From the NCBI GenBank assembly GCA_030378105.1, contig JAUCGL010000004.1:1-64000 (forward strand): DNA of 64,000 nt. Reading direction: 5' to 3'. Positions 1,600 through 42,262 of the stretch are shown here, piece by piece (the stretch's first letter is position 1; each line of letters starts with the position of its first letter). The translations under genes were made by a program, and so were the position numbers. The stretch is from Candidatus Halobeggiatoa sp. HSG11 (lineage in GTDB: Bacteria > Pseudomonadota > Gammaproteobacteria > Beggiatoales > Beggiatoaceae). A model generated the notes under the pieces. That model did no database searches. It saw only the letters and a list, made by a program, of their open reading frames with translations, and had not been told where the DNA came from.

Positions 1600-2949
1600 C
1601 TATAATCCAAACCAGGGCATAGGAATATCTTTGACGGTGGTTAAACCAAATGTTTCCCAGTCTTGCATACCACCACGATACCATTTAAGTTTTTCTGGTG
1701 GATAACCAAATTCTAATAAACTAACGATATTGTCATGCGATTTATTGCACCAAGGGCCATTGCAAAATATAATTAAAGTTTTAGCATTTTCAAAGAAAAA
1801 TTTACCTTTATAATCAATATATACTCCAATTTGTTCTTTTAATAATTTTCTGACAATGGGCAGGCTAGATTTTTTACCACTAAGAACATCCCATGGAATA
1901 TTAACAGTTCCCGGTATAGAACCTTTAACCACCCAATCAATTTCTCGTGAATCAATAACTAAAATGGAATTATCACCTCTCGACATTCTTTCTAAATAAT
2001 TTAATATTTCTAGTTCTGCAACAATTTCAACTTTTTCCATAAAATCAATTGGTCTTAAACATTTTGGTGGACAAGGACGTGAAGTTTTAGCAAATTCAGG
2101 ATTAATAGTATTGTTTTTATTTTGAATTCGTTTGATTAACATTTCTTGACCATTATGATTCACTGGTACTGACTTTAAGTCTAAAGTTATGTTAACTTCA
2201 GGCTCACTATCTTGCCATACAAAGAAAAAGTTTTTGAACCATTTCATCCAAGCTCTAATAGTTGTTTCTTCTGATGGTAATGTCAACAAATCAATGATTT
2301 TAGTATCTAAATCAATCTGTGGTATTAACACATCATCAACTGTAGTTAATCCTAACGATTCCCATGACTGCATACCACCACGATACCATTTTAATTTTTC
2401 TGGTGGATAACCAAGTTGTAACAATGCTTTAATGCTAGTCGGCGACTGATTACACCAAGGTCCATTACAAAATAATACTAACGTTTTTGCAGCATCAAAA
2501 TAATATTTATCTTCATTGACAGTAACATTAAACTGCACTTCCAACAGTTTTTTAAAAACATCTGATTGAGTATTATTAAAAATATCCCAAGGTAAATTTA
2601 TAGCTCCCGGAATTGAACCTTTACTTACCCAAGCAACAGTACGAGAATCTATAATGACACTGTTATCATCTTGTAAATAATCCAATACATTCAATTCAAT
2701 AACAGTTTCCACACCTTCTGCTATAGTTATTGGTTTAATACAAAAAGGTGGACAAGGTCTTGAAGTTTTAGCAAATTCTGGGTTGATTAAATTATTAACA
2801 TTTTGATTGCGTCGAACAATTACTTTTCTATCATTATGTATTATTGATATAGATTGAAGATTTTCAGTAATCCCAACTCCAAGTTTCATTCCGGCCGAAG
2901 AAAATGATATAGTAATTAATACTAATATAAATAATGTTTTATATATCAT
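1600..2949 (-). CDS. Periplasmic tandem rhodanese protein
   Basis: Secreted protein of 449 residues made of two similar halves. The N-terminus (MIYKTLFILVLITISFSSA) looks like a signal peptide. Each half has the order NPEFAKTSRPCPPxC, a rhodanese fold with DSR...WV.KGSIPG, the loop FCNGPWCN, and PPEKLKWYRGGMQ.WE. The candidate persulfide-carrying cysteines are C161 and C396. Rhodaneses transfer sulfane sulfur; substrate and acceptor are unknown. The longer reading starts at TTG 2958; ATG 2949 is preferred because it lies inside the end of the channel gene (ATGATATATAA), giving an 11-nt overlap typical of translational coupling. No strong Shine-Dalgarno is seen, consistent with coupling. The duplicated RPCPPxC motif outside the rhodanese core is unusual. 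Confidence 0.85.
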   Translation of the reverse strand: MIYKTLFILVLITISFSSAGMKLGVGITENLQSISIIHNDRKVIVRRNQNVNNLINPEFAKTSRPCPPFCIKPITIAEGVETVIELNVLDYLQDDNSVIIDSRTVAWVSKGSIPGAINLPWDIFNNTQSDVFKKLLEVQFNVTVNEDKYYFDAAKTLVLFCNGPWCNQSPTSIKALLQLGYPPEKLKWYRGGMQSWESLGLTTVDDVLIPQIDLDTKIIDLLTLPSEETTIRAWMKWFKNFFFVWQDSEPEVNITLDLKSVPVNHNGQEMLIKRIQNKNNTINPEFAKTSRPCPPKCLRPIDFMEKVEIVAELEILNYLERMSRGDNSILVIDSREIDWVVKGSIPGTVNIPWDVLSGKKSSLPIVRKLLKEQIGVYIDYKGKFFFENAKTLIIFCNGPWCNKSHDNIVSLLEFGYPPEKLKWYRGGMQDWETFGLTTVKDIPMPWFGL

Positions 2950-4915
2950 AAAATACAACTATTGTAATTATAAATGCACTTATTAAAATTATAGGCCAAA
3001 ACAGTAATTTAGGTATTAAACCATCACGATAATATCCAATATTTACTTTATACCTATATAGAAAAAAACTAACTGTGGTTATTAAAAAGCTACAATAAAT
3101 AACTAAATAAAAAAATTCTAAATAAATAATTTCTGGCGTTTTAATAGTCCCTCGCAACCTTATGTGAGCAAGTAAAATGCCAAAAAATAAGCCAATTAAT
3201 GAACGCATAAATGTTGTAGTTTTTCCCAACCACATTTGAAGCCCAAATAATATAGTACTTATAATGATAAGTGGCAAAACGTTACTAATGAACTGGCCAA
3301 TAAATTCTCTTTTTAATAAAATATTAATATGCAAATGAGGAAAGTTAATATTTCCCATTCCCATAAATTCAACAATCCCAAAATTAGTATTTTCATAATT
3401 AATTCGATAGTTAAAAAAACTCTTAAATATCGCCCAACCAGATAAAACTAATTCTTTTTTAACTCCGGGTTTAGCCGCCGGATTCATAACTCCATAAGCT
3501 TCTAAGTCTGGAATCAAAATAACATTTTTATCAAAATCACGATGGGCTATACGAATTCCTATCTGACGCTTATCAAAAGGATATTTTGCGTAATAAAATT
3601 CGTGCCGCATAACGACTTGAAAATGCCAACCAATTAATTCAATATTATTTTCTTTTAAATGGTAAGATTCTGTTATATCAGTATATCCAGCTTGTGGCAA
3701 TGCAAATCCACGAGATATTGTGCTGGGAATGTCTTCGGAATATTTCTGCCATACATAACCAGAAAGTGTTATATTGTTTACTCCAGAAAACTTCATAGAT
3801 TCAACAAAGATGCCAGTTGGTATATAATAGACTGGTCTCTTAGATGACATTTGTTTGGTTTGGATATTTAAAAACCTTTCTAAACCAACTTTGTCAACAA
3901 TCGTTGTGCTACCTGCTATTTCAAGAAATGGAGCGGTTTGAGCTAAATACCATAAAAAACCTATGCCACCCATAATTATTATGCTAAAAGCAACTATATA
4001 TTCCCAGAAACCTCTTCGATCTCCTCTATCAATTCGGGAAACAAGTGCTGCTAATAAACTAAGGAAAATAACGGTGGCAATACAAATCCAAATCAATTTT
4101 TTGCGTAGAGAGCTAGTGTCTAACACATCCTTGAAGAATACTACCCCAATTGACCAGTTGGTTGAAGGTACAAACTGATAAAATATCCAAGCTGATTGAC
4201 CAGTTTCTTGATCTATATAATCAATTGTACCACTTGCACCATCAATAGCTTTTTCAGCTAATCTACGTAAAATATCATCATGATGTGAATCGGCTAAATT
4301 AAATACAGTTTGATTATTTTTAACATATTCTTCAATTGGATGAGCAATAAAAACTCCATTTTCCGACAAAATAAACCCATAGCCTGTCCTACCTAATTCA
4401 AGCTCAGTCATCAAAGAACGTACATTACTTAATAAATAATCAACAAATACAACTCCAATAGAAATTTCAACTTGTTTAGCAGTATCGAAATAAGTTATAG
4501 GTATTGTAAATACTTGAATTAAATCTTGTTTTGGTTCCCATTTGCCATCTTTATTAACGTAATAGGGAGAAAGTTTGCGTTTTTGAGGATGCTCAACATA
4601 AGGAGCAAAAGCTACTCCAATTCCAAACATGTTAGGAGTAGTTTTTAAGGCAACTTTTAATCTTTTTAAAATATTTTCTCGGCGTAATTTACCGGAACTT
4701 ATGTTGTCTGCTATATCATGAGCAACAGTGGATAATTTGCCTAAAACGGTTTCAATTTTTTGAGCTGCTTGTATGGTTTCTTGTTGAGCATGAGTTTTTT
4801 CTGAGCGAACTTTATTATTTTTTTCATGTACATAGTCAAACATCAAAAAACCAACTACTAATAAGCTTATTCCGCAAATAAATGATATAAGTTCAAAAAT
4901 ATGTTGTTTCCACAT
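2939..4915 (-). CDS. Cache-domain pentameric ligand-gated ion channel (pLGIC) fusion
   Basis: Inner-membrane protein of 658 residues with two recognisable modules. An N-terminal membrane segment (about 9-31) precedes a periplasmic dCache-like sensor domain (about 36-262). Two further membrane segments (about 272-294 and 304-327) lead to a second extracytoplasmic beta-rich domain (about 335-540) containing YPFD at 445-448, matching the conserved xPFD of the Cys-loop region of pLGICs. Four terminal membrane segments follow (about 542-565, 568-587, 594-618, 637-658). The M1 proline and the LLAHI...KTPEIIY stretch closely resemble the M2-M3 region of the Gloeobacter channel GLIC. The double-cysteine of eukaryotic Cys-loops is absent, as in other prokaryotic members. 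The rhodanese gene overlaps its 3' end. The ligand is unknown. Confidence 0.75.
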   Translation of the reverse strand: MWKQHIFELISFICGISLLVVGFLMFDYVHEKNNKVRSEKTHAQQETIQAAQKIETVLGKLSTVAHDIADNISSGKLRRENILKRLKVALKTTPNMFGIGVAFAPYVEHPQKRKLSPYYVNKDGKWEPKQDLIQVFTIPITYFDTAKQVEISIGVVFVDYLLSNVRSLMTELELGRTGYGFILSENGVFIAHPIEEYVKNNQTVFNLADSHHDDILRRLAEKAIDGASGTIDYIDQETGQSAWIFYQFVPSTNWSIGVVFFKDVLDTSSLRKKLIWICIATVIFLSLLAALVSRIDRGDRRGFWEYIVAFSIIIMGGIGFLWYLAQTAPFLEIAGSTTIVDKVGLERFLNIQTKQMSSKRPVYYIPTGIFVESMKFSGVNNITLSGYVWQKYSEDIPSTISRGFALPQAGYTDITESYHLKENNIELIGWHFQVVMRHEFYYAKYPFDKRQIGIRIAHRDFDKNVILIPDLEAYGVMNPAAKPGVKKELVLSGWAIFKSFFNYRINYENTNFGIVEFMGMGNINFPHLHINILLKREFIGQFISNVLPLIIISTILFGLQMWLGKTTTFMRSLIGLFFGILLAHIRLRGTIKTPEIIYLEFFYLVIYCSFLITTVSFFLYRYKVNIGYYRDGLIPKLLFWPIILISAFIITIVVFYDI

Positions 4916-5273: not shown

Positions 5274-8200
5274 TCACTGAACCTCAATAACAACCGGTTT
5301 TAAATCATAAATAAGTTGTCCATTCTCCAAACGATAACCTGCATAAATTTGTAAATTTCCCTTAGTAAATGGTAATATCATTGATTCAAATAGTTCTAAT
5401 TCATGTTGTTCTTCTAATAACACTGAGCTGGTTATATTAAACTCTGGTAATTTTAAACCATCCCAATTTTGCCAAATTCCACTGTTTAAAATAAAAGCAT
5501 TTACCTGTTTATCAATCTCTTGTATTGCAACAGCTAAAATATTTGCTTCAAAATTAAATTGATGTTCAATATCTGGAATAAGTTGTATTGAAACTTCTCT
5601 TAAATTAATAACTTTAATAAAATCTTCAACTTTATCAAAGAGTTTGCCATGTACAGTAGCATCAGGCATATTATCAACTTTTATTTCAAAAGCTATATTA
5701 TTAACTGTTATCTCATGGCTAGGATTAGTTTCAAAATCCAACGGCTGTTTAAGTCTTAATATGCCAGAATCATCCAACTCAAAATAATCATTTTCTAACA
5801 ATTCAAATTTATAATCTGACTCATCAGTCCAAATACGTCCAACAACTCCTTGATAATTTTCTGATACTGACTTTCTGGTCAAATAAATTAATGGTGTTTC
5901 TGTAACAGGAGTTATTTGAATAATAAAATTCTTTTGAAAAAAGCCACCACTAGAATCTGTGGTTTGAATATTAATTGGATAAGTATCCTCAAGATTTGCA
6001 TCAGTAACAATCTTAACTTCTTCAAATTGCGGTATAAAATCGGTGACATGTAATTCATCATCTATAATTTTAAAATAACCATTGGGATTGATAAGACTAT
6101 AGATAAATTCATCTTCTTTATCTTCATCTTCAGTAGAAAAAGTTCCAATCATATTATCTTTATCACTATCATTAAGCTCAAGAATAATTCCAGTTGGTGA
6201 TTTATTTGATTCTATTGTCAACGTAGCAATTTTATCAGTAAAATACTCATTGTCACTTGTACGATAACCAAACTCAACCTCAAATATACCAGTCATATTA
6301 AGTACAGTTCCCTCAAAAAGAAGGGTTCCTTCCATTTCTTTCTGTAATTGTACTTGAGTTCCAACCGTGATAGCAGGGAAAGCTATTGAAGATTCACTAC
6401 CAAATGCTTTCCAATAATAAATAACAATTATATCAGCATTTTCTCCAATATGCTGTGTAGCTGGCTCAATAGTTCCTGTCAACTTAAACTTTTCTGAAGC
6501 ATTTATACTATGATTGTTTCCAAATAATCCAGCTTGAGTTTGAATTTCTCCATTAGCTTTAAAAACTTCAGTTGGTGGTGGAATAACTATTTCAATTCCA
6601 GTACATTTTAAAGTATAAATTATTGGTTCTGATTCTGGAATAGTTATAGTTAAAGTTGCAGTATGCTCACCTAATTTAGGAATACACTGAATTTTTAATT
6701 TATGAGTTTTATATTCCTCATTAGTTTTGGCATCTATCGAAAATGGTGCTTTTCCTTCAATTATGGAAAAAACTTCATTAATATCCTTGGTAATTTCACT
6801 AGTTTCAATATTTAAAACATTATCTCCCGTATTAGATATAGCTATGAAATTGGTTGCTGGCGAACCTCCCAAAACTGTATTACCTACATTTAATATTCCA
6901 TCGTTCAATATCTCATTATTTAATATTTTAGTCGGTTTAGGAACAGAATCATAAATTGGCCCAGTTTTGTCAGCTTCTCCGGTACATATTAATTTATAAC
7001 TTTGCTCTTTTTTAATATTAGTGGTTACAGTTAAAATTGCAGTATGTTCAGCTAGTTTGGGAATACACTGAATAACTAATTCATGAGTTTTCTCTTCAGT
7101 TTCGTCATTTATTGGAACTATCGAAATTGGTTCTTCTATCTTACCTTTAATTATAGAAAAAACTTTATCAACATCTTCAGTTATATCACTAGTTTCAATA
7201 ACTAAAATATCATCTCCTGAATTAGAAATGATTATGGAATTAGTTACTTCATGTTCAAAAATGGCATTACCTACATTTAGAGTTCCATTATTTAAAGTTC
7301 CAGTTGTTTTTGGAATAGCTTCATAAATTGGCCCAGTTTTATCAGCTTCTCCGGTACAGATAAAATCATAAACTTTTTTGCTTGGAAGTGGGTCTTCAAT
7401 AAATACTTCCAATTTTGCTTTCCATTCTCCCACATTAGTTGGACGACAAGTTATCGTTAGTTCATAATCAGAAGCTTCATTTTGTACTAGTTCATTAATG
7501 GAAAAATCACTTTCATATTCACTAGTTATATCATAACCTGTTATTTCCAAACCTTCATAGTTAAAAATAGTGAGAGTTGTCGTGATGGCTTCCTCTATTT
7601 TAGTGGTTCCTATATCAATAGGTTCTTCATCTGGTTTTGTTGGCTTAGGCTTTGAATTGTAATGAGAATCTTCACCTTCACAAACTAAAGTATATTGATG
7701 AGTTTCTGAAATATCTTCTCCAATGGAATAACTTATTTCTAAAGTAGCAGTCCTAGGTCCAACCTCTACTGGAGTGCATTGAACTGTTACAATATTGAAA
7801 TCCTTACTGTAAGAAAACTCTTGTTTCTCATCTTCAATAATTTTTACTTTAGGGTCATCAATATTTTGTTTTAATATAGTTACGCTAACAGTTGTGGAAG
7901 GAGTACCTAACTCACTACTATACATATCTAAATAACTATCTGGTTCTGGCTCAGAAAATTTATCTGGCAAAGTTGTAGCTTTTTTAACTACTTCTAAGCT
8001 ATATTCACTTGTCGAAATGTAGCCTTCCAAATTATCTGTATATGTAGTCATCACAAAATAATGATTTATATCTGGTGATAAATAAGCTTCTGATATTTCT
8101 GTTTGATTGACCTTTTCTGGTTCATTATTTTCTACTAGAATAATTTCATCAATACTCTCATAAGGTCCTCCTGAAGTAGTCGCATGTTGGATTGTATAAT

Positions 8201-10445
8201 TTCCACTTGCAAATCTATAAGGGATTGTTTCCCATTGCAAAGTAACTGATGTTTGGGATTCAGAAACAATTTCAATTTTGGGTGGGATTGTTTGAGTTGT
8301 ATTCCAGTTTGGATTTTGAGTAGTTAATCTATTGTAATTTAAATCGGCAAGATCAATAAATGATAAAGGTATTTCATCACTTAGTTGATTGTAACTTAAA
8401 TTAAGTGTTTGTAATTTTTCAAGTAGACTTAAGTCTGGAATAAATCCAGTTAAGTTATTATCCGCCAGCTCAATTTTTGTTACATGAGTAAGTTCAGTAG
8501 TTGAATCTGTAGTACATGTTATTCCATACCATTCACAAGGACTATTGGTTTGATTCCATTTGTCATTATTGTTCCAATTTTCTCCGTCAGTTGTTGCATA
8601 AAATTTTAATAAAGTTAAGCATTCTGTTTCAGAAATACCAGTAATATCTGTTTGTGTACAATCAGTTGCAATAATTTCATTTGGTTTAACTATAGCAATT
8701 ATTGAGAAGCTATGAATTTTATCCTGACTACTAGATTGGAACGATACTTCTCCCTTAAAAGTATTTGCATAAGTTGTATTAACATTAATAGTAAAAGTTG
8801 TAAATTCCTTATTATTTGTGGAATCATCTTTATCTATAGTAATAATTCCAGTTTCAAATTCTCCTTTTATATCAAAAACTTTTTCGTTTATTACTTCTAA
8901 ATTATCTTCATTTGTTACTTCTAAACTCCACAAATTAACAAAACTTCCATCAACAATTTCTATTGTAAAAGTTTCGGAAACTGTATCGTCTAACATAACT
9001 TCGCCAAACTCAAAGCTACCATCAATGATATTATTATTGGCATCTAATACGTTAATTGTGGCTGTTTCTAATGTTTTTACTTGGTATTCTTCACTCTCAC
9101 TTACTAATCTATTTTGTTGCTCATCATGTATTTCAGTTATCGTTTCTATTTTAAAGTAATACGGTGTAGCTGGAGATAAACCGCCAATAGTTATGCTTCC
9201 ATCATTCTTACTTTCTGTTTTTTTTGTTTTATCATAACTACCAGAAACAGTTGAATATTTGATTTGATAATAACCAATATCAGCAGTATAGTCTATAGGT
9301 TCCCATGTAATTTCAATACTTGTCGGAGATTTAGAAGTTGCAACAACGGTGGTCTTGATTGGTGGAACAGTTTGAGTAGCTTCCCAGTCGGGGTCTTTAT
9401 CTTTCAAAAGCCCTCGTAAATAATCATCTTCTGTTGCCAACTTATTGTATCCTAAATCTAATAATTGGAGATCATCGGTTAAAATATTGGTAATAAAAAA
9501 TGGAAACTCACCTTGTAAATTATTGTTTTTTAAGTTTAATTTCGTTAATTTGGTTAAATATTTTATACTATCTGGAATAGAACCATTTAATTGGTTGTTC
9601 TCAAGATGTAGGTTAAGTAGATTATCCAGATTCGTTAAATCAGAAATATTGCCTGTTAATTTATTACTGCTTAAATTAAGTGTTTTTAATTCAGCTAAAG
9701 CACTTAAATCTGGTAAAGAACCAGTTAAGTTTTTATTACTCCTTTCAATAACTGTTACATGTCCACCTTCACAACTAACTCCATACCAACTACATGGGAT
9801 ATTAGTTAAATTCCAATAGTTATCGTAACTATCAGCCCAATTATTGCCAGAAGTATTATTATAAAGTTTTACCAAAGTATTACATTCATTTTGAGGAATT
9901 TCGGTGACAGTTGAGCAAAGATTCGTTATTTTAACTAAATCAGCATAATACTCTGGTTCTAATAGATAAGGTGTAGCTTCAGCATTTGTAATTGTAGTTG
10001 CGACTTGAAAATTGTCGCCTAATTCAGATTGTGGAATGTTAAGAGTTATTTCCGCTCCAAAATTCAAACAAGTATCTATTGGAATATCGTTTGGGTCTAT
10101 TAAAAATGTGACTGTATTGCCATTTACTGAACCACCTTTAACTATGCTATTTTTGACTGATAGTGAGCTTGAAGTCAGAGCGTTTCCCCATGTCATACCA
10201 TCATCCAAAGTAATTTTATAATAGAAATTTTGCTCGATAAAACCATCAAAACAATAAGTTACTCTATGTTTAGTTAAAAGTGAATCAAGAACAAGTGAAT
10301 AAGAACCATTCTGCACTCTATCAACAGATAAGTTAACCGGATTAATGGTAAGAGCGGCATAGACCGGCAAAACTGCCATATTGATGAGAATTATAAGTGT
10401 AATTTGTTTAAATATATATGTAATTTTATGATTTTTTATCGACAT
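5274..10445 (-). CDS. Giant secreted LRR / fibronectin-III / cadherin-like surface protein
   Basis: Predicted extracellular or cell-surface adhesin-like protein of 1723 residues. A signal peptide ends near VYA (about residue 30). Two plant-type leucine-rich-repeat blocks (about 200-348 and 602-708) each open with a cap of the type CxxL.KLY..T.G.NW...C.WYG..C and carry LxxLxLSxNxLTG repeats. Each is followed by a fibronectin type III-like domain. Three or four repeats of about 100 residues (about 840-1290) with ...CTGEADKTGPIY... borders resemble ASPM/SPD-2/Hydin immunoglobulin-like modules. Two cadherin-like stretches (about 1405-1580) follow. Start: ATG 10445 has AAAGGAA seven bases upstream and sits four bases after the REC-GGDEF stop; a longer frame from 10469 overlaps that gene and is less likely. 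No sortase signal or beta-barrel was recognised. Confidence 0.85.
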   Translation of the reverse strand: MSIKNHKITYIFKQITLIILINMAVLPVYAALTINPVNLSVDRVQNGSYSLVLDSLLTKHRVTYCFDGFIEQNFYYKITLDDGMTWGNALTSSSLSVKNSIVKGGSVNGNTVTFLIDPNDIPIDTCLNFGAEITLNIPQSELGDNFQVATTITNAEATPYLLEPEYYADLVKITNLCSTVTEIPQNECNTLVKLYNNTSGNNWADSYDNYWNLTNIPCSWYGVSCEGGHVTVIERSNKNLTGSLPDLSALAELKTLNLSSNKLTGNISDLTNLDNLLNLHLENNQLNGSIPDSIKYLTKLTKLNLKNNNLQGEFPFFITNILTDDLQLLDLGYNKLATEDDYLRGLLKDKDPDWEATQTVPPIKTTVVATSKSPTSIEITWEPIDYTADIGYYQIKYSTVSGSYDKTKKTESKNDGSITIGGLSPATPYYFKIETITEIHDEQQNRLVSESEEYQVKTLETATINVLDANNNIIDGSFEFGEVMLDDTVSETFTIEIVDGSFVNLWSLEVTNEDNLEVINEKVFDIKGEFETGIITIDKDDSTNNKEFTTFTINVNTTYANTFKGEVSFQSSSQDKIHSFSIIAIVKPNEIIATDCTQTDITGISETECLTLLKFYATTDGENWNNNDKWNQTNSPCEWYGITCTTDSTTELTHVTKIELADNNLTGFIPDLSLLEKLQTLNLSYNQLSDEIPLSFIDLADLNYNRLTTQNPNWNTTQTIPPKIEIVSESQTSVTLQWETIPYRFASGNYTIQHATTSGGPYESIDEIILVENNEPEKVNQTEISEAYLSPDINHYFVMTTYTDNLEGYISTSEYSLEVVKKATTLPDKFSEPEPDSYLDMYSSELGTPSTTVSVTILKQNIDDPKVKIIEDEKQEFSYSKDFNIVTVQCTPVEVGPRTATLEISYSIGEDISETHQYTLVCEGEDSHYNSKPKPTKPDEEPIDIGTTKIEEAITTTLTIFNYEGLEITGYDITSEYESDFSINELVQNEASDYELTITCRPTNVGEWKAKLEVFIEDPLPSKKVYDFICTGEADKTGPIYEAIPKTTGTLNNGTLNVGNAIFEHEVTNSIIISNSGDDILVIETSDITEDVDKVFSIIKGKIEEPISIVPINDETEEKTHELVIQCIPKLAEHTAILTVTTNIKKEQSYKLICTGEADKTGPIYDSVPKPTKILNNEILNDGILNVGNTVLGGSPATNFIAISNTGDNVLNIETSEITKDINEVFSIIEGKAPFSIDAKTNEEYKTHKLKIQCIPKLGEHTATLTITIPESEPIIYTLKCTGIEIVIPPPTEVFKANGEIQTQAGLFGNNHSINASEKFKLTGTIEPATQHIGENADIIVIYYWKAFGSESSIAFPAITVGTQVQLQKEMEGTLLFEGTVLNMTGIFEVEFGYRTSDNEYFTDKIATLTIESNKSPTGIILELNDSDKDNMIGTFSTEDEDKEDEFIYSLINPNGYFKIIDDELHVTDFIPQFEEVKIVTDANLEDTYPINIQTTDSSGGFFQKNFIIQITPVTETPLIYLTRKSVSENYQGVVGRIWTDESDYKFELLENDYFELDDSGILRLKQPLDFETNPSHEITVNNIAFEIKVDNMPDATVHGKLFDKVEDFIKVINLREVSIQLIPDIEHQFNFEANILAVAIQEIDKQVNAFILNSGIWQNWDGLKLPEFNITSSVLLEEQHELELFESMILPFTKGNLQIYAGYRLENGQLIYDLKPVVIEVQ

Positions 10446-10449
10446 TAGT

Positions 10450-11310
10450 TTATTCCTTTTGTGCAACAACTACCATGTTTCTACCATTTTCTTTGGCTTC
10501 ATACAAAGCATCGTCTGCTTGTTTAATTAACATTATATGGTCATCTATTAATCTAGAAATACCAAAACTGGCTGTCTGATGTCCTGCACCGGTAAAATTA
10601 TGTGTTTCAATTGTTTGTTTAATTCTTTCGGCAAATTTTTTAGCTCCTTGAATACTAGTTTCAGGCAGCAATATAATAAATTCTTCTCCTCCCCAACGAA
10701 TAGGGATGTCATTTTTACGACAATATTTATTTAAAATTGCGGCTAATTCAACCAATACTGAATCTCCAACATCATGACCAAAATTATCATTCACTCGTTT
10801 AAAATGATCAATATCTAGCATAATTAATGATAGTTGACGTTGATAACGTAATGCAAGTTTTATTTCTTTAACAATATGTAAATCAAAAAAATAGCGATTA
10901 TAAATTTGAGTTAAATTATCTATAACTGCATGGCGTTTATCTTGACAACTACGAATTCCAACTCGAATACGAGCCAATAATTCTTCAATTTCAAATGGTT
11001 TAATTAAATAATCATCCGCTCCAATATCTAGCCCAGTTATTTTATTAGAACTGTCAGCCATAGCAGTAAGCATAATAATATAAATAATTGAATTTTTGGG
11101 ATCGCTACGCAACTCTTTACAAACTTCGAAACCACTCATACCATGCATCATAACATCTAACAAAATCACATCAGGAATACAATCCCGTACTTGCTTTAAA
11201 GCTTCTGCCCCATCTTTGGCTTCAAATATTTCATATTTAACTTTTTTTAGATGAAAACACAACATTTTTCTTATACTATTATTATCATCTACAATTAAAA
11301 TTTTTTCCAT
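10450..11310 (-). CDS. Response regulator diguanylate cyclase (REC-GGDEF, PleD-like)
   Basis: Cytoplasmic two-component output protein of 286 residues. The receiver domain (about 1-120) has the phospho-acceptor in VILLDVMM and the conserved Lys in YLIKPFE. The GGDEF domain (about 128-286) has an intact active-site RWGGEEF and a product-inhibition I-site RKND just upstream, so it should make cyclic di-GMP when phosphorylated. An AAGGAAAA ribosome binding site precedes the ATG. The giant LRR surface protein begins four bases downstream, so the two are probably co-transcribed. A link between c-di-GMP and this adhesin-like product is inferred from the order only. No cognate histidine kinase is adjacent. 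Confidence 0.9.
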   Translation of the reverse strand: MEKILIVDDNNSIRKMLCFHLKKVKYEIFEAKDGAEALKQVRDCIPDVILLDVMMHGMSGFEVCKELRSDPKNSIIYIIMLTAMADSSNKITGLDIGADDYLIKPFEIEELLARIRVGIRSCQDKRHAVIDNLTQIYNRYFFDLHIVKEIKLALRYQRQLSLIMLDIDHFKRVNDNFGHDVGDSVLVELAAILNKYCRKNDIPIRWGGEEFIILLPETSIQGAKKFAERIKQTIETHNFTGAGHQTASFGISRLIDDHIMLIKQADDALYEAKENGRNMVVVAQKE

Positions 11311-40729: not shown

Positions 40730-42262
40730 ATGAATATAACCAATAAAATTACCTTGGTAGTGATGTTTTGTTTTATTATTGCATTATTTATAATGTTACC
40801 ATTCGTACTGTTTCACATAAATAAATCTGGTCAACAAGAAGTTAAGCAATACAAACAAGAAGAAATTAATCGGGTTAAACAATCTTTGAAGGAATATGTT
40901 GATATCGCTTATGTAACATTAGATACCAATTACAAAAATGCCATGGATAAACAATATTTGGCTAGGCATTATGGTCAGCAATTGACTAATATTGTTGATA
41001 TTGCAGAAAGTATTCTTAAAACCAAAGCAGAAGCAGTGAAATTGGAAGGGCTAGAACTTTCTGAAGCTTTGGAACAAGCAGCGATGGAAGTGGCCAAGCT
41101 TCGTTATAACAATGGTAATGGTTATGTTTGGATAAGTGACACTACCGAACCACATCCAAAAATGATTATGCACCCATTGGAGCAAAATTTAAATGGCAAA
41201 ACATTGGATGATCCAAAATATAACAGTGCATTAGGTAAAGAGCAAAATATTTATCAAGCTGCTGTGGAAGTTTGTTATCATCATGGTAAAGGATTTATTG
41301 ATTATTTATGGCCGAAAACAACACCAAATGGTGTAATTGATGACATGCCAATGTTGGCTTATGTGCGATTGTTTGAAGATTGGAATTGGATAATTGGTAC
41401 TGCGATTTATGTTGATAATGCTATTGACGATGCGATTGAAAATAGTAAAGATGACATAAGAAAAATGCGTTATACCAATGGTATTGGGAATTTTTGGATT
41501 GCTGATACCAAACCTAAGTTGAAAATGTTAGTCAATTCAGATGAATTCACACTTGAAGAACAAGTTTTATCTGGAAAAGCTAAACAACATTATGAATCTA
41601 TTTTGAAAATTTGCCATCAACAAAATGGTAGCTGTTTTTATACTGATAATACAGCAAAATTACCACATACTAATAAAAAAGTGGCTAAATTATCATATGT
41701 TAAATTATATGAGCCGTTGGGCTGGATGTTAGGCACTGGTTTTTATTTGGATGATATTAACCGGGCTGTTGCAGAAAAAGAAGCAATGGTTAGAGAAGAA
41801 ATTAAGCATATGACAATAACGCTGGTAGTTGTCGCTATTATGGCAGTTATTTTAATCAGTGTATTAGGTTATATTATGTTAAAATATTTCCCAAAAATTA
41901 AGAAATCTATTTTAAAACATTCGGAAGGCCATGATTTACAAAAAATTCCTGAAATAAGAAACGAGGAAGTTTATAAGCCAGAAGTTTACAGACCGGTTGA
42001 TGGAGAAATAATAAATCCAATACCTAATAATAATGGTGGCGGTGGTGGTATGATACACACTGATGAATGTATTAAAATGGTACAAGAGGTCAGCAAGACC
42101 TTGATATCTGAGCATTCTAAATGGCTGGCTGCTAATTTATCCCAACCAGAAAAGCCAACTTCTTCTTCCATTTCTTCCATAGATAAAATAAAAAGACAGG
42201 CTAAAATGCCTTCACATACCAATACTGTTATTAATGATCTGAATAAAATGGTTGGTAAATAG
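40730..42262 (+). CDS. Double-Cache membrane sensor without an output domain
   Basis: Inner-membrane protein of 510 residues. A membrane helix (about 7-29) is followed by two Cache domains of the single-Cache_2 type (about 65-235 and 240-350). The halves share the pattern (K/R).RY.NG.G..WI.DT.P.....H/N (RYNNGNGYVWISDT and RYTNGIGNFWIADT) and end in WNWIIGTAIYVD and LGWMLGTGFYLD. A second membrane helix lies at about 365-388. The cytoplasmic tail of 120 residues has a GGGGG hinge and helices but none of the usual outputs: no methyl-accepting domain, HAMP, kinase or GGDEF. Such Cache pairs usually bind small acids. The output is unknown and may lie in a partner protein. Confidence 0.85.
   Translation: MNITNKITLVVMFCFIIALFIMLPFVLFHINKSGQQEVKQYKQEEINRVKQSLKEYVDIAYVTLDTNYKNAMDKQYLARHYGQQLTNIVDIAESILKTKAEAVKLEGLELSEALEQAAMEVAKLRYNNGNGYVWISDTTEPHPKMIMHPLEQNLNGKTLDDPKYNSALGKEQNIYQAAVEVCYHHGKGFIDYLWPKTTPNGVIDDMPMLAYVRLFEDWNWIIGTAIYVDNAIDDAIENSKDDIRKMRYTNGIGNFWIADTKPKLKMLVNSDEFTLEEQVLSGKAKQHYESILKICHQQNGSCFYTDNTAKLPHTNKKVAKLSYVKLYEPLGWMLGTGFYLDDINRAVAEKEAMVREEIKHMTITLVVVAIMAVILISVLGYIMLKYFPKIKKSILKHSEGHDLQKIPEIRNEEVYKPEVYRPVDGEIINPIPNNNGGGGGMIHTDECIKMVQEVSKTLISEHSKWLAANLSQPEKPTSSSISSIDKIKRQAKMPSHTNTVINDLNKMVGK

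Follow-up and report, generated by a model that had tools for sequence, protein, structure and literature searches.

Fusions of a Cache/MCP-N domain to a pentameric ligand-gated ion channel (pLGIC) were reported in Methanosarcina, Cytophaga and Microbulbifer by Tasneem et al. 2004 (PMC549065), with the added domains placed after the signal peptide and before the LBD. From Rhodopseudomonas, the same work described a Cache gene standing alone in the vicinity of a pLGIC, and chemotactic receptors were proposed. The class to which the protein described here belongs is therefore already known, since those fusions also carry an N-terminal Cache domain and a pLGIC core in one chain; the Microbulbifer protein may even belong to the same family. 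Compared by description only, the 2004 paper differs in that it speaks neither of a hairpin in the membrane separating Cache from LBD nor of a retained M0 helix, a rhodanese or injection-system neighbours.

Another related case is DeCLIC, a prokaryotic pLGIC in which a large N-terminal domain tunes gating (PMC12664993, PMC9897478), as could happen here. The N-terminal domain of DeCLIC consists of two periplasmic jelly-roll lobes, whereas our protein has a dCache domain with membrane helices of its own as anchors; given this difference and the silence of the 2004 paper on a hairpin, it was fair to call the topology uncommon, as an earlier note on this DNA had done. GLIC shares with the fusion protein the fold of beta-sandwich plus M1-M4, the Pro-loop and the M1 proline, but only about 14% identity, and it has neither Cache domain nor M0. 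On the sensor side, the dCache histidine kinase sensor mmHK1 (mmHK1S-Z3; 3lib, 3li8) presents the same dCache fold at about 20% identity, although its output is a kinase and that of the fusion protein is a channel. Judged by the literature searched, four features appear to be new: the hairpin in the membrane, the retention of M0, the truncated lobe of the Cache domain and the partner genes.

The fusion gene and its neighbours

The window, that is, the whole stretch of 64,000 nucleotides of Candidatus Halobeggiatoa sp. HSG11 that was analysed, contains the Cache-pLGIC fusion gene at 2939..4915 on the minus strand (658 aa, ATG start, TAA stop). The earlier note had given the same coordinates without naming the strand. 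Twenty full-length relatives were found in other genomes and as paralogues (36-83% identity); identity is 82-83% within the genus and 36-64% widely across the family. Named carriers include Thioploca, Thiomargarita and Candidatus Parabeggiatoa, and full-length relatives beyond the family were observed in Desulfuromonadales (L075) and Armatimonadetes (L076). Against the nearest relative, the first, second and third codon positions accumulated 91, 39 and 222 base differences over 657 codons, and this pattern was alike in the Cache, hairpin, extracellular and membrane parts. Judged from the codon positions, purifying selection acts on all domains. The twenty full-length relatives, together with this pattern, indicate that the ORF is a real gene.

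Downstream on the same strand, a double-rhodanese protein with a signal-peptide-like N-terminus is encoded at 1600..2949 (Pfam Rhodanese, 3.6e-23), and its ATG overlaps the 3' end of the channel gene by 11 bases. A rhodanese-family gene is the next conserved same-strand gene in every one of the 11 window-type loci with sequence downstream of the channel gene. In the genus of the window this partner is a two-domain protein of about 450 aa, and in Thiomargarita-type genomes, for example L061:8007-8666, a single-domain protein of about 220 aa. In seven of these 11 loci the rhodanese is followed by a stand-alone dCache_2 protein, on the same strand in six; in the sister clade, the dCache_2 gene lies directly downstream of the channel in 10/10 loci extending far enough. 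This partner has no recognised output domain. Two strong copies are present in the own genome, both away from the channel: C20 (64% identity) and the plus-strand gene at 40733-42262 of the window (46%; dCache_2, 1.5e-54).

Other observations concern the surroundings. Just downstream of the rhodanese gene, positions 1349-1587 hold four head-to-tail 60-bp units with 94% matches, and upstream of the channel, at 5274-10469 on the minus strand, a protein of 1731 aa is encoded that combines leucine-rich repeats with fibronectin type III domains. In a relative, a 263-aa shortened Cache-channel (L047:3058-3846), in which the N-terminal Cache part is joined to the membrane part, adjoins an intact dCache partner; it probably reflects gene decay or faulty assembly. 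Furthermore, a triple fusion of about 1190 aa was observed elsewhere in the own genome (L032:1807-5367, G000:C93) and in L041 and L044. Here Peripla_BP_6 (3.9e-39) is followed by a pLGIC and, after M4, by a sugar-type SBP_bac_1 domain (7.8e-32), so that the channel carries sensors at both ends.

The two folds and the membrane hairpin

Seven membrane helices were predicted by hydropathy in the window protein and in its fused relatives, and an AF2 model of the former, built as a monomer from a 41-row alignment (pLDDT 84.3, pTM 0.74), concurs. TM1 (residues 6-24, 4844..4900, minus strand as all features of the gene) opens a 72-residue helix (2-73) that runs into the Cache domain in the model, and TM2 (268-292, 4040..4114) is the exit helix of the Cache module; both were located by hydropathy and the model. 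For TM3, which we call M0 (300-326, 3938..4018), as well as for M1 (538-561, 3233..3304), with its conserved Pro548, and the pore helix M2 (569-590, 3146..3211), the limits come from the model and the alignments, and for M3 (598-621, 3053..3124) and M4 (633-655, 2951..3019) from the model.

The dCache domain occupies residues 34-267 (4115..4816), with a short distal lobe. The dCache_2 profile of Pfam matches it above its cut-off (5.6e-11), and VIA-align superposes residues 34-270 on the dCache sensor 3lib (Z 19.1, 216 residues, 3.3 A). Two PAS-like lobes and the long N-terminal helix are recognised, placed between two membrane helices.

The channel half was harder to identify by profiles. A Neur_chan match had been proposed in the earlier note as a check, and on this Pfam criterion the channel claim would have looked weak: there was no such match in the C-terminal half of any of 19 members (the window protein and 18 relatives), and the Pfam scan of the window protein gave nothing convincing for this half. 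A single-sequence phmmer search of the PDB yielded weak matches to GABA-A receptors (residues 527-632, E 0.036). When a profile of the 19 C-terminal halves was used instead, 31 distinct PDB sequences were matched, all of them GLIC or GLIC chimeras (best E 9e-5), and the matches span the extracellular and membrane parts. Bridging with hhalign linked the family, at a probability of 99.1%, to pLGICs of the PBP type that occur in the same genomes; one of these (L032) hits NCBIfam and Pfam models of ligand-gated channels, with scores below their cut-offs.

Structure comparison points in the same direction. A single-sequence AF2 prediction of the C-terminal half reached a pLDDT of 40 and was discarded; with the 41-row model, the best Foldseek matches were GLIC, and VIA-align superposed residues 359-655 on GLIC 6zgk (Z 19.5, 274 residues, 2.7 A), with a beta-sandwich followed by four helices in the monomer. 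The pLGIC-type extracellular beta-sandwich (residues 336-536, 3308..3910), delimited by profile, alignments, model and GLIC superposition, terminates at the conserved pre-M1 Arg536. Its Pro-loop is YPFD at 445-448 (3572..3583), as had been noticed before. The proline of this loop is absolutely conserved in pLGICs (PMC4795631), and its counterpart P446 is invariant in our 41 sequences. R536 and W430 are likewise invariant in them, and P548 of M1 nearly so. The architecture first read from the letters, a Cache sensor, two extra helices and a pLGIC, is thus borne out by seven helices and two predicted folds; a model lacking the beta-sandwich and four helices, which by the earlier note would have refuted its reading, was not obtained.

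The turn between TM2 and M0, SRIDRGDRRG, is rich in arginine, which fits the expectation for the cytoplasmic side; with the N-terminus inside, both the Cache domain and the beta-sandwich are periplasmic. Seven Cache-less channels (about 373-398 aa) begin with the M0 helix too, and Trp304 of M0 is invariant in 41/41 rows of fused and Cache-less channels. Since Cache-less relatives retain M0 with its invariant tryptophan, M0 is part of the channel module and not a Cache helix, and the Cache domain therefore connects to the channel only via the membrane hairpin. The recurring unit is M0 plus channel, to which Cache is attached through a short cytoplasmic turn. Sequence and structure prediction together show the two folds, the order of the elements, the topology and the place of M0 in the channel module.

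Our first idea was that a free channel had later been fused to a Cache module. In the tree of the channel part, which is rooted by a long branch and whose rooting is unsure, the Cache-less forms make up one clade nested among the fused ones (96/82). The idea was dropped for this reason, a loss of TM1-Cache-TM2 being no less likely.

The Cache pocket and the pore

In the distal lobe of the window-type proteins and of the sister clade, about 36 residues are missing (the Y-D-Y-T...W-Y...W-x-E-P stretch), whereas this segment is present in the paralogue-type L039 and in members outside the Beggiatoaceae-type group (L075, L095-L103). It is usual in ligand-binding dCache domains and not needed for the fold; its incompleteness in Beggiatoaceae-type members weakens the claim of ligand sensing and leaves the fold assignment as it is. 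The distal lobe is the one that holds the ligand in well-studied dCache domains. That a ligand of the Cache domain gates or tunes the channel, as the earlier note had put it, is therefore something that we only infer, and the Cache domain of the window protein, judged from its residues, may bind nothing.

The missing segment, absent throughout the Beggiatoaceae-type group, also fits a possible though somewhat unlikely alternative, namely that Cache is a module for assembly, anchoring or docking, for instance of the stand-alone dCache protein, while gating is done by the beta-sandwich alone, as in GLIC and ELIC. In 17 loci a neighbouring gene codes for a dCache_2 protein, and the Cache-less relatives have retained everything else. 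The membrane-proximal lobe is nevertheless well conserved, as its profile match indicates (dCache_2, 5.6e-11), and the Cache stretch is under purifying selection, both of which speak against such a role.

Regarding the pore, M2 contains three arginines (571, 586, 588) and no acidic residue. Its register was taken from a bridging alignment in which the fusion family was combined with a GLIC fragment and with the PBP-linked pLGICs found in the same genomes; this alignment places R571 at 2', F578 at 9' and R588 at 19'. The arginine at 2' is retained in the 12 window-type members, and that at 19' is nearly invariant family-wide. Three arginines without any acidic residue, and the conservation at 2' and 19', suggest that the pore, if read from its residues, would be permeable to anions. 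The same alignment qualifies the motif LLAHI...KTPEIIY, first taken as the M2-M3 segment of GLIC: KTP is in register, but LLAHI sits about four residues further along M2 than the LIAHI of GLIC. LLAHI was accordingly rejected as a match, and that part of the likeness is probably coincidental.

The arginine at pore position 2' is unusual, and one may ask whether the protein conducts at all. It could have the pLGIC fold and be a non-conducting receptor, or it could be an obligate hetero-pentamer partner of Cache-less or other Cache-channel paralogues. The own genome does contain one further channel with a Cache domain (C286) and one without (C136), and genome G235 has a cluster of three pLGIC-like genes. 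Yet in the genome of the window these two genes and the fusion gene are not adjacent, and the fold and the conserved gating residues are intact, so we regard this explanation as unlikely. That an unrelated C-terminal membrane domain was misread as a channel from a short motif, as the lack of a Pfam channel match and the register of LLAHI could suggest, is highly improbable and was ruled out by profile matches restricted to GLIC in the PDB and by the superposition on GLIC across the beta-sandwich and four helices.

Proposed mechanism and roles in the family

We consider it probable that the protein is a receptor-channel in the membrane that belongs to the pLGIC (Pro-loop) superfamily, with sensing by Cache and coupling through the hairpin, and its predicted assembly is most likely pentameric. 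A point against this reading is that dCache domains often pair as dimers, which makes them a poor fit to a five-fold symmetry without help. Each subunit would have seven membrane helices, TM1 and TM2 holding the periplasmic dCache domain; the arginine-rich cytoplasmic turn would join TM2 to M0, which would lead into the beta-sandwich and the M1-M4 pore. Cache, possibly with the separately encoded dCache protein, would sense a periplasmic small molecule or the redox/sulfur state. Because the TM2-M0 hairpin is the only covalent path, the signal would travel as a movement of these helices, as for Cache domains driving kinases and chemoreceptors, and would bias the pore opened by the beta-sandwich. 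The conserved neighbouring rhodanese suggests that sulfane sulfur is connected with the stimulus, as would suit a sulfur oxidiser, although adjacent genes may belong to different pathways.

Some relatives, in other gammaproteobacteria, have another context. In genome G276, a block encodes a sheath, a gp19 tube, CIS_tube, a VgrG-like protein, baseplate J, a CIS tape measure (9.9e-119) and an AAA protein, together with a peptidoglycan-binding membrane protein, an eCIS_core-type gene, the Cache-pLGIC and a second, plainer pLGIC-like gene. The same blocks are present in G235 and G106 and, with a Cache-less channel, in G240, while the contig of G163 starts within the block. At the downstream end of these contractile injection operons, Cache-pLGIC or Cache-less pLGIC genes lie beside eCIS_core genes (L120 and L103 in G276, L115 and L097 in G235, L118 and L102 in G106, L124 and L098 in G240, L099 in G163), several of them about 5 kb past the tape-measure gene. 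Among 20 genomes of the order of G235, eight have a Cache-pLGIC and all eight a tape-measure gene, one further genome has the tape measure only and the other 11 have neither, all positives being of one genus. No paper pairing contractile injection systems with ligand-gated ion channels was found in the literature searched, the eCIS surveys examined do not mention ion channels, and we found no earlier proposal there of a pLGIC as sensor or trigger of such a system. For the own genome of the window, in which neither an eCIS_core nor a CIS tape-measure match was obtained, this link was rejected, and the context therefore holds for relatives only.

As a tentative and rather doubtful generalisation, the family could consist of sensor-channels that are coupled through the membrane and act within sensory units of several proteins: with a separate dCache auxiliary protein and a rhodanese for the sensing of sulfane sulfur in the giant sulfur bacteria, and as membrane sensor or trigger of a contractile injection system in other gammaproteobacteria. 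Such a dCache auxiliary protein would recall the alpha2delta subunits of calcium channels, which carry Cache domains. The fusion proteins would be natural channels in which sensor and pore are linked solely through membrane helices, and the Cache-less relatives, whose M0 and pore are the same, provide built-in controls. The physiology of bacterial pLGICs is largely obscure, and the conserved partners, that is, the dCache protein, the rhodanese and the injection-system operons, make their roles testable.
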